This document shows positions 1 to 5,691 of a stretch of DNA of 64,000 bases, piece after piece. How positions within the stretch are numbered: position 1 is the stretch's first letter; each line of letters begins with the position of its first letter. Under the pieces are notes generated by a model. That model had not been told where the DNA came from. It made no database searches and saw only the letters and a program-made list of their open reading frames with translations. The DNA is from Propionicicella superfundia DSM 22317. GTDB lineage: Bacteria; Actinomycetota; Actinomycetes; Propionibacteriales; Propionibacteriaceae. The position numbers and the translations under genes are program-made. The stretch spans positions 737,671 through 801,670 of the forward strand of contig NZ_KE384020.1 of NCBI RefSeq assembly GCF_000423465.1, read 5' to 3'.

Positions 1-528
1 GCGGCGTTCAGCAAGACCGCGGCCGCGGTGCAGCCCAGCATCGCCAAGCAGATCAACGCCGAGGTCGCCGCGCTCGAGCCCGCCGACGGCGAGTTCTCGC
101 TGACCAACCTCAGCGGCGACACCGTGACCCTCGCCGATCCGGCGATCGTGAACGGCCAGTCCGTCTCCTCCGGTGCGCTGGGTCAGTTCAAGGTCACCGA
201 CCTGCGTCAGGTCTCCAAGCCGGGCTGGACGCTCGGCACCACCGTGCAGCAGTTCACGCTGTCCGGTGGCACCGAGACCATCGAGAACAGCGCCCTCGGC
301 ATTGCGCCGCAGAGCGTCAACCAGTCGGGCGGCACCGCCGAGGCTCCGGCGCTCAGCGCAGCGCAGGTGTCCGGGAGCGCCACCTACCCGTGGAACTTCG
401 CCACCCTGGCGGCGGGGAAGTACTCCGGCGTGACGACGTTCGACGCCGACCTGCAGTTCACCGCCCCGCAGGGCAAGCCGGCCGGTACCTACACCTCGAC
501 GCTCACGCTGACGCTCATCTCCGAATGA
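1..528 (+). CDS. WxL-like domain surface protein, C-terminal part (5' end outside window)
   Basis: The frame is open from base 1, so only the last 175 residues are seen and the start lies upstream. The visible part carries a WxL-type signature: a W-T-L triplet (codons 226-234) followed by a short beta-rich stretch, and a C-terminal TYTSTLTLTL segment where classical WxL domains end in a TLTWTL-like motif. The second tryptophan is therefore leucine here. WxL domains of Firmicutes bind the cell wall non-covalently and are co-encoded with DUF916 proteins; the next gene is of that type, which supports the reading. No membrane segment is visible in this part, so the product is probably exported and held by wall or partner proteins. 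The missing N-terminus could carry another domain, for example a solute-binding domain, given the PstB-like ATPase downstream; that is a guess. Confidence 0.6.
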   Translation, partial: AAFSKTAAAVQPSIAKQINAEVAALEPADGEFSLTNLSGDTVTLADPAIVNGQSVSSGALGQFKVTDLRQVSKPGWTLGTTVQQFTLSGGTETIENSALGIAPQSVNQSGGTAEAPALSAAQVSGSATYPWNFATLAAGKYSGVTTFDADLQFTAPQGKPAGTYTSTLTLTLISE

Positions 529-752: not shown

Positions 753-1907
753 ATGAACCTCCTGCGTGTCGTCCGCCTTGTCAGGACGCTGTTGACCACC
801 GCGATCCTCGTGCTGTGCGCCGTCGTCGCGCTCCCGGCCGCCTCCGCGCGAGCCGACGACACCACCGGCATCGCCATCGCTCCGGTCAGCGCCAAGGGCG
901 TGACCGATGGACGCAGTCGCTTCACCTACCAGGTCGACCCCGGGCAGAAGCTCACCGATCACGTCCGGGTCAGCAACGCCGGCACGACGTCGATCAAGGT
1001 CACCGTCTTCGCCACGGACGCCTACAACGCCGACAACGGCGACTTCGCCCTGCGCGACACGGCCGAGAAGGCGACCGGCGCCGGGTCGTGGGTCAGCTTC
1101 GGCGGAAAGCCGAAGCTGACGCTCACCCTCACCCGCGGCCAGAGCAGAGTCATCCCGTTCACCGTCACCGTGCCCAAGGACGCGACACCCGGTGACCACC
1201 CCGGCGGCGTCGTGGCATCGGCCACCCAGGTGGGCGACATCACCGTCGAGCGGCGCATCGCGAACCGGATGTACGTGCGGGTGTCCGGCGACCTCCAGCC
1301 CAACCTCACCATCAGCAGCCTCTCCGGCGCCCACAAGAGCGGCCTCAACCCCGCCGACGGCTCGGTGACCGTGACCGCCACCATCACCAACAGCGGCAAC
1401 GTGGCGCTCGAAGGCGTCCTCACCCTGTCGGCGAGCACCTGGTTCGGGATCGGTGTCGGGGAGACCACGCGTCAGCCGCTCTCGGAGATCCTGCCCGGCA
1501 ACACCAGAACGGTGGTCGTCGAACTGGCCGGAGTACCACAGGCCGGCTACGCCCAGGTCAAGCTGCTGCTCCAGTCCGGCATCTCCGGAGACGCCCCCGA
1601 CCCCGGGCCGCTCCCAGTGGTCGAACGAGACGTCTTCGTGTTCGCCGTACCGTGGATCGTCCTCGGCGTGCTGGCACTGGCCGTCGCCGTATGGCTGGTG
1701 CTGCGCTGGCGTCGCCGCCGCGACGCGAAGCGCGCCGCCGAATGGCTCGCCTACACCGAGGCCGAGGCGAGACGGCAGGCAACCCAGGCAGCCTCGGCCG
1801 CCCCCGAGGCACCTCCGGGGCAGAGTCCCCCGGACACCGGACAGCCCCCGTCCCCGCACGACATCCCTTCCGACCCGTACGGAAGCGGCCGGGAGGGCAC
1901 GCGTTGA
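753..1907 (+). CDS. DUF916-type (WxL-associated) membrane-anchored surface protein
   Basis: 384 residues. The ATG at 753 is chosen because AAGGTGAAG lies just upstream and it opens directly onto a signal peptide (residues 1-34, cut near ASARA/DD). Residues about 38-180 resemble the DUF916/WxL-partner fold: a PGQ turn, NAG and an A-T-DA motif, and a late VPKDATPGDHPGG segment typical of the family. Residues about 190-280 form a second Ig-like domain. A hydrophobic helix (about 295-315) followed by RWRRRRD anchors the C-terminus, leaving a Pro-rich cytoplasmic tail of about 65 residues. In Firmicutes such proteins act with WxL proteins on peptidoglycan; here it probably displays the upstream WxL-like protein. 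Its stop overlaps the next start. Confidence 0.75.
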   Translation: MNLLRVVRLVRTLLTTAILVLCAVVALPAASARADDTTGIAIAPVSAKGVTDGRSRFTYQVDPGQKLTDHVRVSNAGTTSIKVTVFATDAYNADNGDFALRDTAEKATGAGSWVSFGGKPKLTLTLTRGQSRVIPFTVTVPKDATPGDHPGGVVASATQVGDITVERRIANRMYVRVSGDLQPNLTISSLSGAHKSGLNPADGSVTVTATITNSGNVALEGVLTLSASTWFGIGVGETTRQPLSEILPGNTRTVVVELAGVPQAGYAQVKLLLQSGISGDAPDPGPLPVVERDVFVFAVPWIVLGVLALAVAVWLVLRWRRRRDAKRAAEWLAYTEAEARRQATQAASAAPEAPPGQSPPDTGQPPSPHDIPSDPYGSGREGTR

Positions 1908-2764
1908 CGCGCCGATGGACGACAGCGCCCCTGACAGCGTCGCTGGCCATTCTCGTGGCCGCGGCGCTGCCGGTCCTCGCACCGAAGGCGCAGGCCGATG
2001 AGGCGGACAGAGAAGGCGGCGGTCGCGGCGTCGGCGTCTCGGTGATCGTCGCGAGCACGAGCCCCACGCCGACCGTCACCGCGACCGGCACTCCCCGGCC
2101 GAGCCCGGGCACATCGTCCGCGCGGCCCGGGAACGGCGACGACAACGACGACCAGGGCAATGGCGGCCAGGGGGGCAACAGCCAGGGCGGAAACCAGAAC
2201 GACCAGGGCGGCGGCCAGCCGAGCACGCCCGACCCGTCGGCGTCGCAGACGTCCACGCCCGTCGCCGAACCCGACGGCGCCGGGGGGCTGTCGGAGGACG
2301 GGACGCTCTATGTGAGCGGGCTGATCCTCGTCCACAAAGCCTCGCTGAACCCGCTACGCGGGACGCTCCTGCTGCGCCTCACCGTTCGCAACGTCAGCGC
2401 CAAGCCCGCCGATGCGACCGCCGTCTTCTGGGTGACCCAGATCTTCGGGGGCACGATCGGCTCGCCGATCACCGTCGAGATCCCGGGTCTTCAGCCCGAC
2501 GAGACGCGGCCCGTCGAGGTCACGATCGACGGCGTCGGCCAGTGGACCTTCGTCACCGGCCACGCCACGCTCACCAAGAAGACCGGGGACGGTGAGACGC
2601 CCGTCGCACCGGTGAACCGTGACATGGCGACGTTCACCCCACCGTGGTTCGTCCTGGTGCTCGCGGCACTCGGCGGTGTCGCCGCCCTCGTCCACCGGCA
2701 GCGCAGGTCCGCTCGGCGTACGCACACCTCCAAGCCCGCCGCCGTGGTCAGGACGCCCAAGTGA
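1904..2764 (+). CDS. Membrane-anchored surface protein with one Ig-like domain, WxL/DUF916 cluster
   Basis: 286 residues from a TTG start that shares bases with the previous stop (TTGA). GGGAGGG lies eight bases upstream and the signal peptide (residues 1-32, ending AQA) begins exactly here, so I prefer it to longer alternatives. Residues about 33-125 are a low-complexity linker rich in Gly, Asn, Gln, Asp, Pro and Ser/Thr, likely a wall-spanning spacer. Residues about 130-235 form a beta domain that aligns with the second domain of the preceding DUF916-type protein (HKASLNP here, HKSGLNP there; FGGTIG against FGIGVG; both with a P..TR.V.V...GV turn). A C-terminal helix (about 246-264) and an RQRRSARR stop-transfer anchor it. 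Its exact role is unknown. Confidence 0.65.
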   Translation: MTRRWTTAPLTASLAILVAAALPVLAPKAQADEADREGGGRGVGVSVIVASTSPTPTVTATGTPRPSPGTSSARPGNGDDNDDQGNGGQGGNSQGGNQNDQGGGQPSTPDPSASQTSTPVAEPDGAGGLSEDGTLYVSGLILVHKASLNPLRGTLLLRLTVRNVSAKPADATAVFWVTQIFGGTIGSPITVEIPGLQPDETRPVEVTIDGVGQWTFVTGHATLTKKTGDGETPVAPVNRDMATFTPPWFVLVLAALGGVAALVHRQRRSARRTHTSKPAAVVRTPK

Positions 2765-3888
2765 CCGATGGCACTCACCTCTCAGGCCGGCCATCGCCCC
2801 ACCCCGGCACAGATCCCCGCCGCCTGGCGGGGCCCGGCCTTCCCACGGCCGACGGCGACCTCGGCCGCACCGGCCCACCCCCGCCGTCCGCACCGCCGGG
2901 AACGCCCGGACCACCGAAGACAGCCAAGCCCCCAAAACCACCGAGAGCGCCCAAGAAGTCCCGCTCCCCGGGCGCGGCGGCCCCGCGTCCGCCGCGGCTG
3001 CCCGGAAGGCTCCCGCACACGCTCCCTCCTCCTGTGCCCCTGAGCCCCCGCCTGCTCCTCATCCGCGGGAGCCTGACGATGATCGGCGTCATCGCGGCCG
3101 GGTTCCTGCTGAACCTGCTGATCCTCAGCCATCTCCAATACGCCGTCTCCCAACAGCAGTTGCGGGCGACCTACACCGACCAACTGGCCGCCGGCACCGC
3201 CCCGGTCAGCGAGGGAAACTTCGAGGACGTCCTGCTGCAGGACGGCGAGCCCGTCGCCCGCATCGAGATCCCCGCCATCGGTGTGGACGCCATCGTGGTG
3301 GAGGGAACCTCGTCGGGCACGCTCACCGCGGGGCCCGGCCATCGCCGCGACACGGGGCTTCCGGGGCAGGCCGGCGCCAGCGTCCTGATGGGGCGAGCTG
3401 CCGCCTACGGAGGACCGTTCAGCCGGATCCAGGAACTGGCGCCCGGAGAGACCATCAGCGTGGTCACCGGACAGGGCGAGCACATCTACGAGGTCATCGG
3501 CGTCCGCTACGCGGGAGATCCCTCGCCGGCACCGCTCACCGCGGGCGAAGGACGCCTCGTCCTCGAGACCGCGCGGGGGTTCCCCTACATGCCGAACGGC
3601 GTGGTGCGGGTCGACGCGCAACTCGTGTCCACGACGCAGCCGGCGGGACTGCGCGAGACCACGCGACGCACCCTCGCGCCCGAGGACAAGGAACTGGCCG
3701 GCGACACGACCTCCGTGTGGGCGTTGGTCTTCGCCCTGCAGTTCCTGGTGATCGCCGAGATCGCCGGCGTGTACTCGCTGCGCACCTTCGGCGCCGCGAA
3801 GGCCTGGGTCGTCTTCGTGCCCGTGCTGGTCCTCAGCGGACTGCTCGTGGCCGATCAGGTGACACGACTGCTGCCCAATCTCATGTGA
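2761..3888 (+). CDS. Sortase-fold membrane protein lacking catalytic His and Cys
   Basis: 375 residues from a GTG overlapping the previous stop (GTGA). Residues 1-100 are a Pro/Arg-rich cytoplasmic segment; a membrane helix (about 103-125) is followed by an extracellular domain with clear sortase features (ARIEIPAIGVDAIVVEG, GPGHRRDTGLPGQ, YGGPFSRI). The positions that should be catalytic are changed: the usual GHR is GRA (Arg 212 replaces His), and the usual TLTTC is LVLETA (Ala 271 replaces Cys). The catalytic Arg also cannot be matched in the NGVVRVDA strand. Two more helices (about 317-335 and 343-363) end the protein. Transpeptidation is therefore unlikely; it may be a binding or scaffolding relative working with the anchored proteins upstream. 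Family membership is clear; function is inferred. Confidence 0.75.
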   Translation: MTDGTHLSGRPSPHPGTDPRRLAGPGLPTADGDLGRTGPPPPSAPPGTPGPPKTAKPPKPPRAPKKSRSPGAAAPRPPRLPGRLPHTLPPPVPLSPRLLLIRGSLTMIGVIAAGFLLNLLILSHLQYAVSQQQLRATYTDQLAAGTAPVSEGNFEDVLLQDGEPVARIEIPAIGVDAIVVEGTSSGTLTAGPGHRRDTGLPGQAGASVLMGRAAAYGGPFSRIQELAPGETISVVTGQGEHIYEVIGVRYAGDPSPAPLTAGEGRLVLETARGFPYMPNGVVRVDAQLVSTTQPAGLRETTRRTLAPEDKELAGDTTSVWALVFALQFLVIAEIAGVYSLRTFGAAKAWVVFVPVLVLSGLLVADQVTRLLPNLM

Positions 3889-3934
3889 CCTTGACGCGTC
3901 CGAGGCCCCGGACATCGACATGACAGGAGGAACG

Positions 3935-4789
3935 ATGGCCATCATCGTCCAGCCGCAAGACCCCACAGAGGTCCTGCACACCGCCCGCAGGCCGGCACCT
4001 GAGGCCGCTCCCCCACTGGCCGGTCTCGAAGCCCGCAGCATCTCCGCCTGGTTCGGGGATCACAAGGTTCTCGACAGGGTGTCGCTGACCATGCCGGCCG
4101 GCGTCGTCACCTCGCTCATCGGGCCGTCGGGGTGCGGCAAGTCGACCTTCCTGCGGATCCTCAACCGGATGCACGAGCTCGTGCCGTCCGCCTCGCTGGC
4201 GGGTGAGGTGCTGCTCGACGGCGACGACATCTACGACCGCAGCCACCGGCTGGTCGACGCCCGCAAGAAGATCGGCATGGTGTTCCAGAAACCGAATCCG
4301 TTCCCGGCCATGTCGATCTACGACAACGTGGTCGCGGGACTCAGGCTCACCGGGGTCAGGCCCGCCCGCCAGGAGAAGGACGAACTGGTGGAGTCCTGCC
4401 TGATACGCGCCGGTCTGTGGTCCGAGGTCAAGAACAGGCTCCGCGAGCCCGGCGGCGGCCTGTCGGGCGGCCAGCAGCAACGCCTCTGCATCGCGCGGTC
4501 CCTCGCCGTCAGGCCACGGATCCTGCTGATGGACGAACCCTGCTCGGCGCTGGACCCGACCTCGACCAGGGTGATCGAGGAGACGATGCTGGAGCTGCGT
4601 CACGAGGTGACCATCGTCATCGTGACCCACAACATGCAGCAGGCGCAGCGGGTGTCCCAGCAGTGCGCCTTCTTCCTGGCCTCCCAGGGCACGCCGGGGA
4701 TCATCGTCGAGCACGGCGACACGGCGGCGATGTTCGACTCCCCTCAGGACCAGCGCACCTACGACTACGTCACCGGCCGGTTCGGATGA
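3935..4789 (+). CDS. PstB-like phosphate-type ABC transporter ATP-binding protein
   Basis: 284 residues. AGGAGG at 3925-3930 places the start at ATG 3935 rather than the in-frame ATG at 3920. All ATPase motifs are intact: Walker A GPSGCGKST (63-71), Q-loop Q118, LSGGQ (176-180), Walker B ILLMDEP (196-202) and H232. The closest family by feel is PstB, which drives PstCA phosphate import, but no permease gene lies in the window. The first 30 residues are an unusual Pro/Ala-rich extension. It sits inside the envelope operon, 46 bases after the sortase-fold gene and overlapping the transglycosylase gene by ATGA, so it may energise a membrane complex of this cluster rather than phosphate uptake. 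Permeases upstream of the window or elsewhere remain possible. Confidence 0.8.
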   Translation: MAIIVQPQDPTEVLHTARRPAPEAAPPLAGLEARSISAWFGDHKVLDRVSLTMPAGVVTSLIGPSGCGKSTFLRILNRMHELVPSASLAGEVLLDGDDIYDRSHRLVDARKKIGMVFQKPNPFPAMSIYDNVVAGLRLTGVRPARQEKDELVESCLIRAGLWSEVKNRLREPGGGLSGGQQQRLCIARSLAVRPRILLMDEPCSALDPTSTRVIEETMLELRHEVTIVIVTHNMQQAQRVSQQCAFFLASQGTPGIIVEHGDTAAMFDSPQDQRTYDYVTGRFG

Positions 4790-5691
4790 CCGGCGCGATC
4801 CGGGCCGCGTCTCCGGCCGCGGCGCCCGGCACCCCCACACCGTCCCCGGCGGAGGACACCGGTCCGGGGCGGCGCTACGCCGACGCCGATCCGGCAGGTC
4901 CCACCGGCGGCCGGGTCGCCCGTCGCGGACGGGCGTGGGGACACGTCCTGTCGGGTCTCGCGGTCCTCGCGACCTGCGCCGCGGTCGCGGTCGTCGTCCT
5001 CGCCGTCAGCGGTGCCCGCGCCGCCGACGGCGAGACGGGCACCGTCGAGGCCGCGCCGGTGGCGGCCGGGACGCAGCGAGCCGGGCCCGCCCCGACGAGC
5101 GCCGCGAGCCGCTCGGCGGGCTCGCCCGTCCGGCGCGTCGACCCGACGTGGGCGCGACGCACCGCCGACGCGACAGGCATCCCCCGGCGCGCGCTGCTCG
5201 CGTACGCGGCCGCCGATCTGACCATCACCGCCGAGCAACCCTCCTGCGGCCTCTCGTGGAACACGCTGGCGGCGATCGGCGAGGTCGAGTCGTCCCACGC
5301 GCGCGAGGGCGGCGCGACCCTGCTGGAGTCCGGCACGACCGACACGCCGATTCTCGGCCCCGTCCTCGACGGGCAGGGGTTCGCCGCGATCAGGGACACC
5401 GACGACGGGGTCTGGGACGGCCACACCACCTGGGACAGGGCCGTCGGGCCCATGCAGTTCATCCCGTCCACGTGGCGGCAGTGGGCGGCGGACGGAAACG
5501 GCGACGGCACGGCGGACCCCAACTCGATCGACGACGCCGGTCTCGCCGCCGCGCGCTACCTGTGCGCGTCGGGGCCGGTGACGAGCCCCGCGGGCTGGAG
5601 GGCCGCCGTGTACTCCTACAACCACTCCGACGCGTACGTCGACAAGGTCGCGGCGATCGCCAACCGCTACGCGGCGCTGACGCCCCGATGA
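4786..5691 (+). CDS. Membrane-anchored lytic murein transglycosylase-like protein
   Basis: 301 residues; the ATG at 4786 overlaps the preceding stop (ATGA). A Pro/Ala-rich cytoplasmic head (1-49) precedes one membrane helix (about 50-75), then an Ala/Ser/Thr-rich linker and a soluble transglycosylase domain (about 125-301). The catalytic motif IGEVESSHA fits the SLT2/MltB-like group in actinobacteria; Glu168 is the likely catalytic acid by alignment with VESxHG. AVGPMQFIPSTWRQW and the YSYNHSDAYV stretch are further family hallmarks. The enzyme would cut the glycan strand of peptidoglycan from the outer membrane face. Its place between an ATPase gene and a PASTA kinase gene, coupled by overlaps, suggests local wall opening under control of the kinase. 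Confidence 0.82.
   Translation: MTGAIRAASPAAAPGTPTPSPAEDTGPGRRYADADPAGPTGGRVARRGRAWGHVLSGLAVLATCAAVAVVVLAVSGARAADGETGTVEAAPVAAGTQRAGPAPTSAASRSAGSPVRRVDPTWARRTADATGIPRRALLAYAAADLTITAEQPSCGLSWNTLAAIGEVESSHAREGGATLLESGTTDTPILGPVLDGQGFAAIRDTDDGVWDGHTTWDRAVGPMQFIPSTWRQWAADGNGDGTADPNSIDDAGLAAARYLCASGPVTSPAGWRAAVYSYNHSDAYVDKVAAIANRYAALTPR

Follow-up and report, generated by a model that had tools for sequence, protein, structure and literature searches.

What becomes of a sortase, an enzyme that fastens proteins to the wall of bacterial cells, once it has lost the residues of its own chemistry: is it a broken gene, or a working part of something else? The question is raised by an open reading frame near the start of the window analysed here (the whole stretch of 64,000 nucleotides from Propionicicella superfundia), whose GTG start overlaps the stop of the preceding gene. 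A first-pass annotation had described its product as a sortase-fold protein framed by three membrane helices, in which preservation of the fold around a dead centre pointed to selection for another function. The gene and the parts of its product are the following.

2761..3888, + strand: pseudosortase, 375 amino acids, with a proline-rich N-terminus, transmembrane helix 1, the sortase barrel and two C-terminal transmembrane helices
3070..3126, + strand: transmembrane helix 1, residues 104-122, from hydropathy and also a helix in the predicted model
3238..3630, + strand: sortase beta-barrel domain, about residues 160-290, from the Pfam match and the predicted model
3715..3849, + strand: transmembrane helices 2 and 3, about residues 319-337 and 345-363, from hydropathy and the predicted model

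The Pfam Sortase family covers residues 168-250 with a score of 50.1 bits (cut-off 26.6), the match ending short of the Cys/Arg region, and the top NCBIfam model is that of class E sortases (NF033747), at 66.3 bits and below its cut-off of 160. An AlphaFold2 model built with 42 family sequences (mean pLDDT 90.4) superposes on solved class A, C, D and E sortases with Z scores of about 14-18 over 127-162 residues, and on peptide-bound SrtE1 of Streptomyces coelicolor (5cuw) with a Z score of 15.4 over 131 residues at 2.3 Å; the predicted fold is thus a sortase beta-barrel, in agreement with the first-pass annotation. Besides this fold, the protein shares with SrtE1 the GPGH and PGQ/PGE motifs and an N-terminal membrane anchor. 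The three helices framing the domain are indeed present by hydropathy, and the model agrees, but they are not special to this protein: the same arrangement, with the barrel preceded by one helix and followed by two, is found in the active class E relatives L138, L143 and L144, which rules out the topology as a mark of new function and suggests that it is probably older than the loss of activity.

The GPGHRRDTGLPGQ and YGGPF motifs are kept and lie where they had been claimed to lie, and reading the open reading frame again gives the same replacements in the active site, GHR to GRA and TLTTC to LVLETA, as had been reported. Four positions matter here.

3343..3345, + strand: R195, at the position of the class E LAXTG-recognition Tyr (GPGHY to GPGHR)
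3394..3396, + strand: R212, at the position of the catalytic His (GHR to GRA, G211-R212-A213; codon CGA)
3571..3573, + strand: A271, at the position of the catalytic Cys (TLTTC to LVLETA; codon GCG)
3601..3603, + strand: V281, at the position of the catalytic Arg, from alignment with intact class E sortases

These positions were followed through an alignment of 86 sequences, made up of the best 80 of 351 relatives, six loci from whole-genome searches and the protein itself, minus one duplicate. The 351 relatives came from a contig scan of a genome collection with a five-sequence alignment, single-sequence patterns being too specific and giving no match; the 80 retained loci are the most similar of them and heavily Microbacteriaceae, and several comparison sequences derive from metagenome-assembled genomes. 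Among the 86 distinct homologues, the best 80 of 351 included, position 212 is always Arg, position 271 holds Ala in 82 sequences and Ser in the other four, V, I, L, T and M predominate at position 281, where Arg never occurs, position 195 is Arg in 85, and no Cys occurs anywhere in the sortase domain; orthologues with the catalytic His or Cys are therefore absent from this set, and the suspected lack of a catalytic Arg is borne out by a column that reads V281. The spacing from catalytic Cys to catalytic Arg in class E sortases is about nine residues. A first alignment had put the Cys column at G273, an assignment given up when more active sequences moved it to A271; neither position is ever Cys. 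Tyr229 of SrtE1, in the beta-3/beta-4 loop, has been proposed to recognise LAXTG (PMC5148588). In our alignment it corresponds to the Tyr of the GPGHY motif, so that in contrast to a class E sortase the active-site His, Cys and Arg and the recognition Tyr are all replaced. As its residues read, the barrel cannot work as a sortase through known chemistry.

Sequencing error at the R212 and A271 codons, which had been named as a possible refutation, is excluded by an independent orthologue from the same family that is 60% identical and also reads GRA/LETA, together with fixation of the dead centre in 86 of 86 homologues (the best 80 of 351 among them). The dN/dS ratio is 0.04-0.14 for the closest pairs, with a median of 0.14 over 144 pairs, and such low values indicate strong purifying selection on the pseudosortase; with the fixed replacements, they also exclude a decaying gene. 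In small samples of whole genomes, clear copies were found in 2 of 14 from the family, 5 of 19 from the order and 3 of 23 from the phylum, the genome studied here being counted in each sample.

The phylum-level search also yielded two more distant Pst-linked copies, L137, with the motifs MARRSTFGAPF and LVTSDG, and L139, with AGRRTTYGAPF and LTTSNPEYLASERL. In L139 the His is replaced by Arg and the Cys by Ser with the catalytic Arg retained (GRR/LTTS). In a maximum-likelihood tree the sampled dead Pst-linked copies form a single clade (UFBoot 100) in which L139 branches first, and by its motifs and position L139 is a transitional form at the base of the dead clade. Every sampled Pst-linked homologue is dead, whereas nearly all of the Pst-unlinked sortases, for many of which no more than about 1.5 kb of flank was examined, retain the His and Cys where these were read. 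The five other sortases of this genome are among those that do, one of them an intact class E sortase with GHR/TLTTC, and judged from sequence the pseudosortase is class E-derived. Two exceptions lie outside the Pst-linked clade: a class E-like sortase (L021:1393-2004) in which GHR and TLTTC have become GYR and TLTTS, and which may have lost its activity independently, and a sortase-like domain at L146:9852-13832 (minus strand), placed outside the clade by the tree, that reads ANR and LFASARR, with His and Cys gone and Arg kept.

The neighbours of the pseudosortase within the window are these.

1..528, + strand: Ig-repeat surface protein, C-terminal part with a WxL-like domain at its end; the remainder lies upstream of the window (locus L007)
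753..1907, + strand: DUF916 / WxL-interacting protein with a C-terminal transmembrane helix (PF06030, 44 bits, cut-off 27.3)
1904..2764, + strand: small Ig-like protein with a membrane anchor and homology to the DUF916 protein's C-terminal half (BLASTP E 1e-8)
3920..4789, + strand: PstB-like ABC ATPase (TIGR00972, 336.8 bits, just below the cut-off of 343.2)
4786..5691, + strand: lytic-transglycosylase-like gene (PF13406, 36.2 bits)

Upstream of the window, L007 carries PstC, PstA, a C-terminally anchored PstS, a large PstS-fold protein (PBPlarge) and the Ig-repeat surface protein, and also a third secreted protein, which on visual inspection resembles PstS and has no Pfam match; two BPD_transp_1 permeases are present in the cluster. 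This company is strict. With the best 80 of 351 relatives included in each count, in 78 of the 83 homologous loci with room to see it the next family gene is PstB, in 72 of 79 the small Ig-like protein is the closest family gene on the upstream side, and PstS and PBPlarge lie upstream in 63 and 61, respectively, of the 65 loci for which 9 kb or more of upstream sequence is available. The partners that stay constant in the more distant members are PstC, PstA, PstB and an anchored PstS, joined in most cases by a second PstS-fold protein. L137 and L139 have the same core gene set in rearranged order, which supports a functional link better than conserved order alone would. A separate PstB, above its family cut-off, is encoded elsewhere in the genome, and the cluster thus looks like a second, Pst-like system. 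Known here from its genes, it shares with the Pst phosphate transporter (PstSCAB) two permeases, a PstB-like ATPase and a PstS with most phosphate ligands, and differs from it in the C-terminal transmembrane helices that anchor PstS and a second PstS-fold protein and in the addition of the pseudosortase and WxL/DUF916 proteins. A lytic-transglycosylase-like gene occurs near the pseudosortase in 14 of the 86 loci (best 80 of 351 included), distant ones among them (L034:12778-13533). A Microbacterium-like pseudosortase-PstB pair on a 3.4-kb contig (L090), deposited under the name Stenotrophomonas maltophilia P13, is probably contamination.

DUF916 and WxL-like proteins accompany most clusters, and the proposed DUF916-type partner is accordingly common beside the pseudosortase, but it falls outside the minimal set: DUF916 was not detected in L033-L037, L137 and L139, where the Pst linkage persists, and its standing as an essential partner is unsupported. 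The pairing of a DUF916 protein bearing a transmembrane helix with a protein ending in a WxL-like domain resembles the WxL / WxL-interacting-protein clusters of Firmicutes (PMC10599100), from which the present clusters differ by their association with a Pst-like ABC system and a pseudosortase. The WxL domain is here weakly recognised by Pfam, PF13731 matching in L116 only, at 21.9 bits and below the cut-off of 25. In three Cryobacterium clusters (L055:8357-9346, L060:8250-9119 and L062:8176-9168) the place of the Ig/WxL-like protein is taken by a low-complexity protein whose LASTG sorting signal is intact.

The PstS of the operon retains T, S, R and SGT of the phosphate-binding site, D56 being conservatively replaced by Glu. 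In the well-sampled clade its tail reads PFTL[AP]xxGWG and continues into a transmembrane helix and basic residues, which is the layout of a sorting signal. Across 65 PstS tails, from a set including the best 80 of 351 relatives, L is present in 54, A or P in 57 and G in 45, and the cleavage-site Thr in few, some tails retaining LADTG, LAETG, LPDTG or LPSTG. The Thr-less L[AP]xxG motif is a possible ligand of the pseudosortase; it is weak or absent in the most distant tails (L034-L037, L137, L139) and so cannot be the ancestral ligand everywhere. A model of the large PstS-fold protein from L042:2644-4770 (pLDDT 88.5) has a PstS fold over residues 243-702 (Z 29), and in L007:4601-7552 and its relatives the beta-rich N-terminal ~240 residues lie outside the structure matches. 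This protein seems to read AGSEL at the GATF motif of PstS, and its phosphate site may therefore be lost. Repeated SNLSKRPLSPST segments occupy its predicted N-terminus at L007:4601-4860, the true start probably lying further downstream. A candidate LPxTG signal in the operon's PBPlarge ('VPATG') is not conserved and was rejected.

That a fixed pseudosortase is linked to a Pst-like system is almost certain from these data. The same dead form, with the same Arg, is kept beside Pst genes across many actinobacteria, and the gene is thus probably a non-enzymatic part of a Pst-like membrane system rather than a broken gene; its strict Pst company suggests a structural role in the complex, and the conjecture that the fold was kept for another function is supported by the fold itself, fixation, the single clade, purifying selection and the Pst linkage. 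Our main reading, to which we give a probability of roughly 0.6, is that a fixed class E-derived pseudosortase forms part of a second Pst-type ABC system, as a membrane subunit without catalytic function, and docks PstS stalks. The former substrate groove would now bind without cutting, and would dock the membrane-proximal stalks of anchored PstS-fold proteins next to the PstCAB channel, a dead enzyme being matched with an uncleavable signal, the PstS stalk motif, which has almost always lost its cleavable Thr; attachment of the complex to peptidoglycan would fall to the WxL/DUF916 proteins. Taken by itself, docking of the PstS stalk is tentative, since distant PstS tails lack the motif and loss of the LAXTG-reading Tyr runs contrary to a simple retention of class E specificity; the score of PstB, a little short of its family cut-off, also counts against the main reading. 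Doubtful is the wider proposal that pseudoenzyme and former substrate changed together, so that across Actinomycetota a dead sortase grips an uncleavable PstS signal as a structural ABC subunit.

The replaced residues admit another account, the main rival and in our judgement an unlikely one, in which an arginine-lined putative pocket (R195, R196, R212 and perhaps R249 and R265) captures phosphate or a phosphate-bearing polymer, for example teichoic acid, and passes it to PstS. The conservation of these residues fits it, R212, R249 and R265 being invariant and R195 and R196 nearly so in the 86 homologues (best 80 of 351 included), as does a PstS that keeps most of its phosphate ligands; yet R195 is missing from the early-branching L137 and L139. 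Invariance of H194, R212 and D285 in the same 86 sequences, again with the best 80 of 351, could likewise be taken for a different catalytic set in a protein that is still an enzyme. We find this hardly credible, given that the H194 position is also His, and non-catalytic, in many intact class E sortases, that the domain is devoid of Cys, and that Ser stands at the nucleophile position in four sequences only.

Two further explanations turn on the neighbours. The barrel might bind the ectodomains of WxL/DUF916 proteins and organise a peptidoglycan-bound surface layer, as the presence of such proteins in most clusters and of a DUF916-protein homologue directly upstream in most loci would allow; the persistence of the Pst link in L033-L037, L137 and L139, where DUF916 goes undetected, makes this rather improbable. 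A role as decoy or guard, shielding PstS-like tails from the active housekeeping class E sortase or competing with it, draws on the intact GHR/TLTTC enzyme in the same genome and on the tails with complete signals, but it leaves the strict operon linkage without a reason, and most PstS tails, lacking a cleavable Thr, need no guard; we regard it as very unlikely. A non-catalytic, stalk-docking subunit of the Pst-type system stays our preferred reading.

In the literature searched, with subscription journals mostly outside its coverage, no description was found of a dead sortase in a Pst operon. If the preferred reading is right, an entire clade of proteins recognised by sortase families would not be sortases, and the Pst-type ABC system of many environmental actinobacteria would have an unrecognised extracytoplasmic subunit. 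The family would also offer a clean case of an enzyme whose chemistry was lost and whose fold was kept for binding, with a transitional form still extant.
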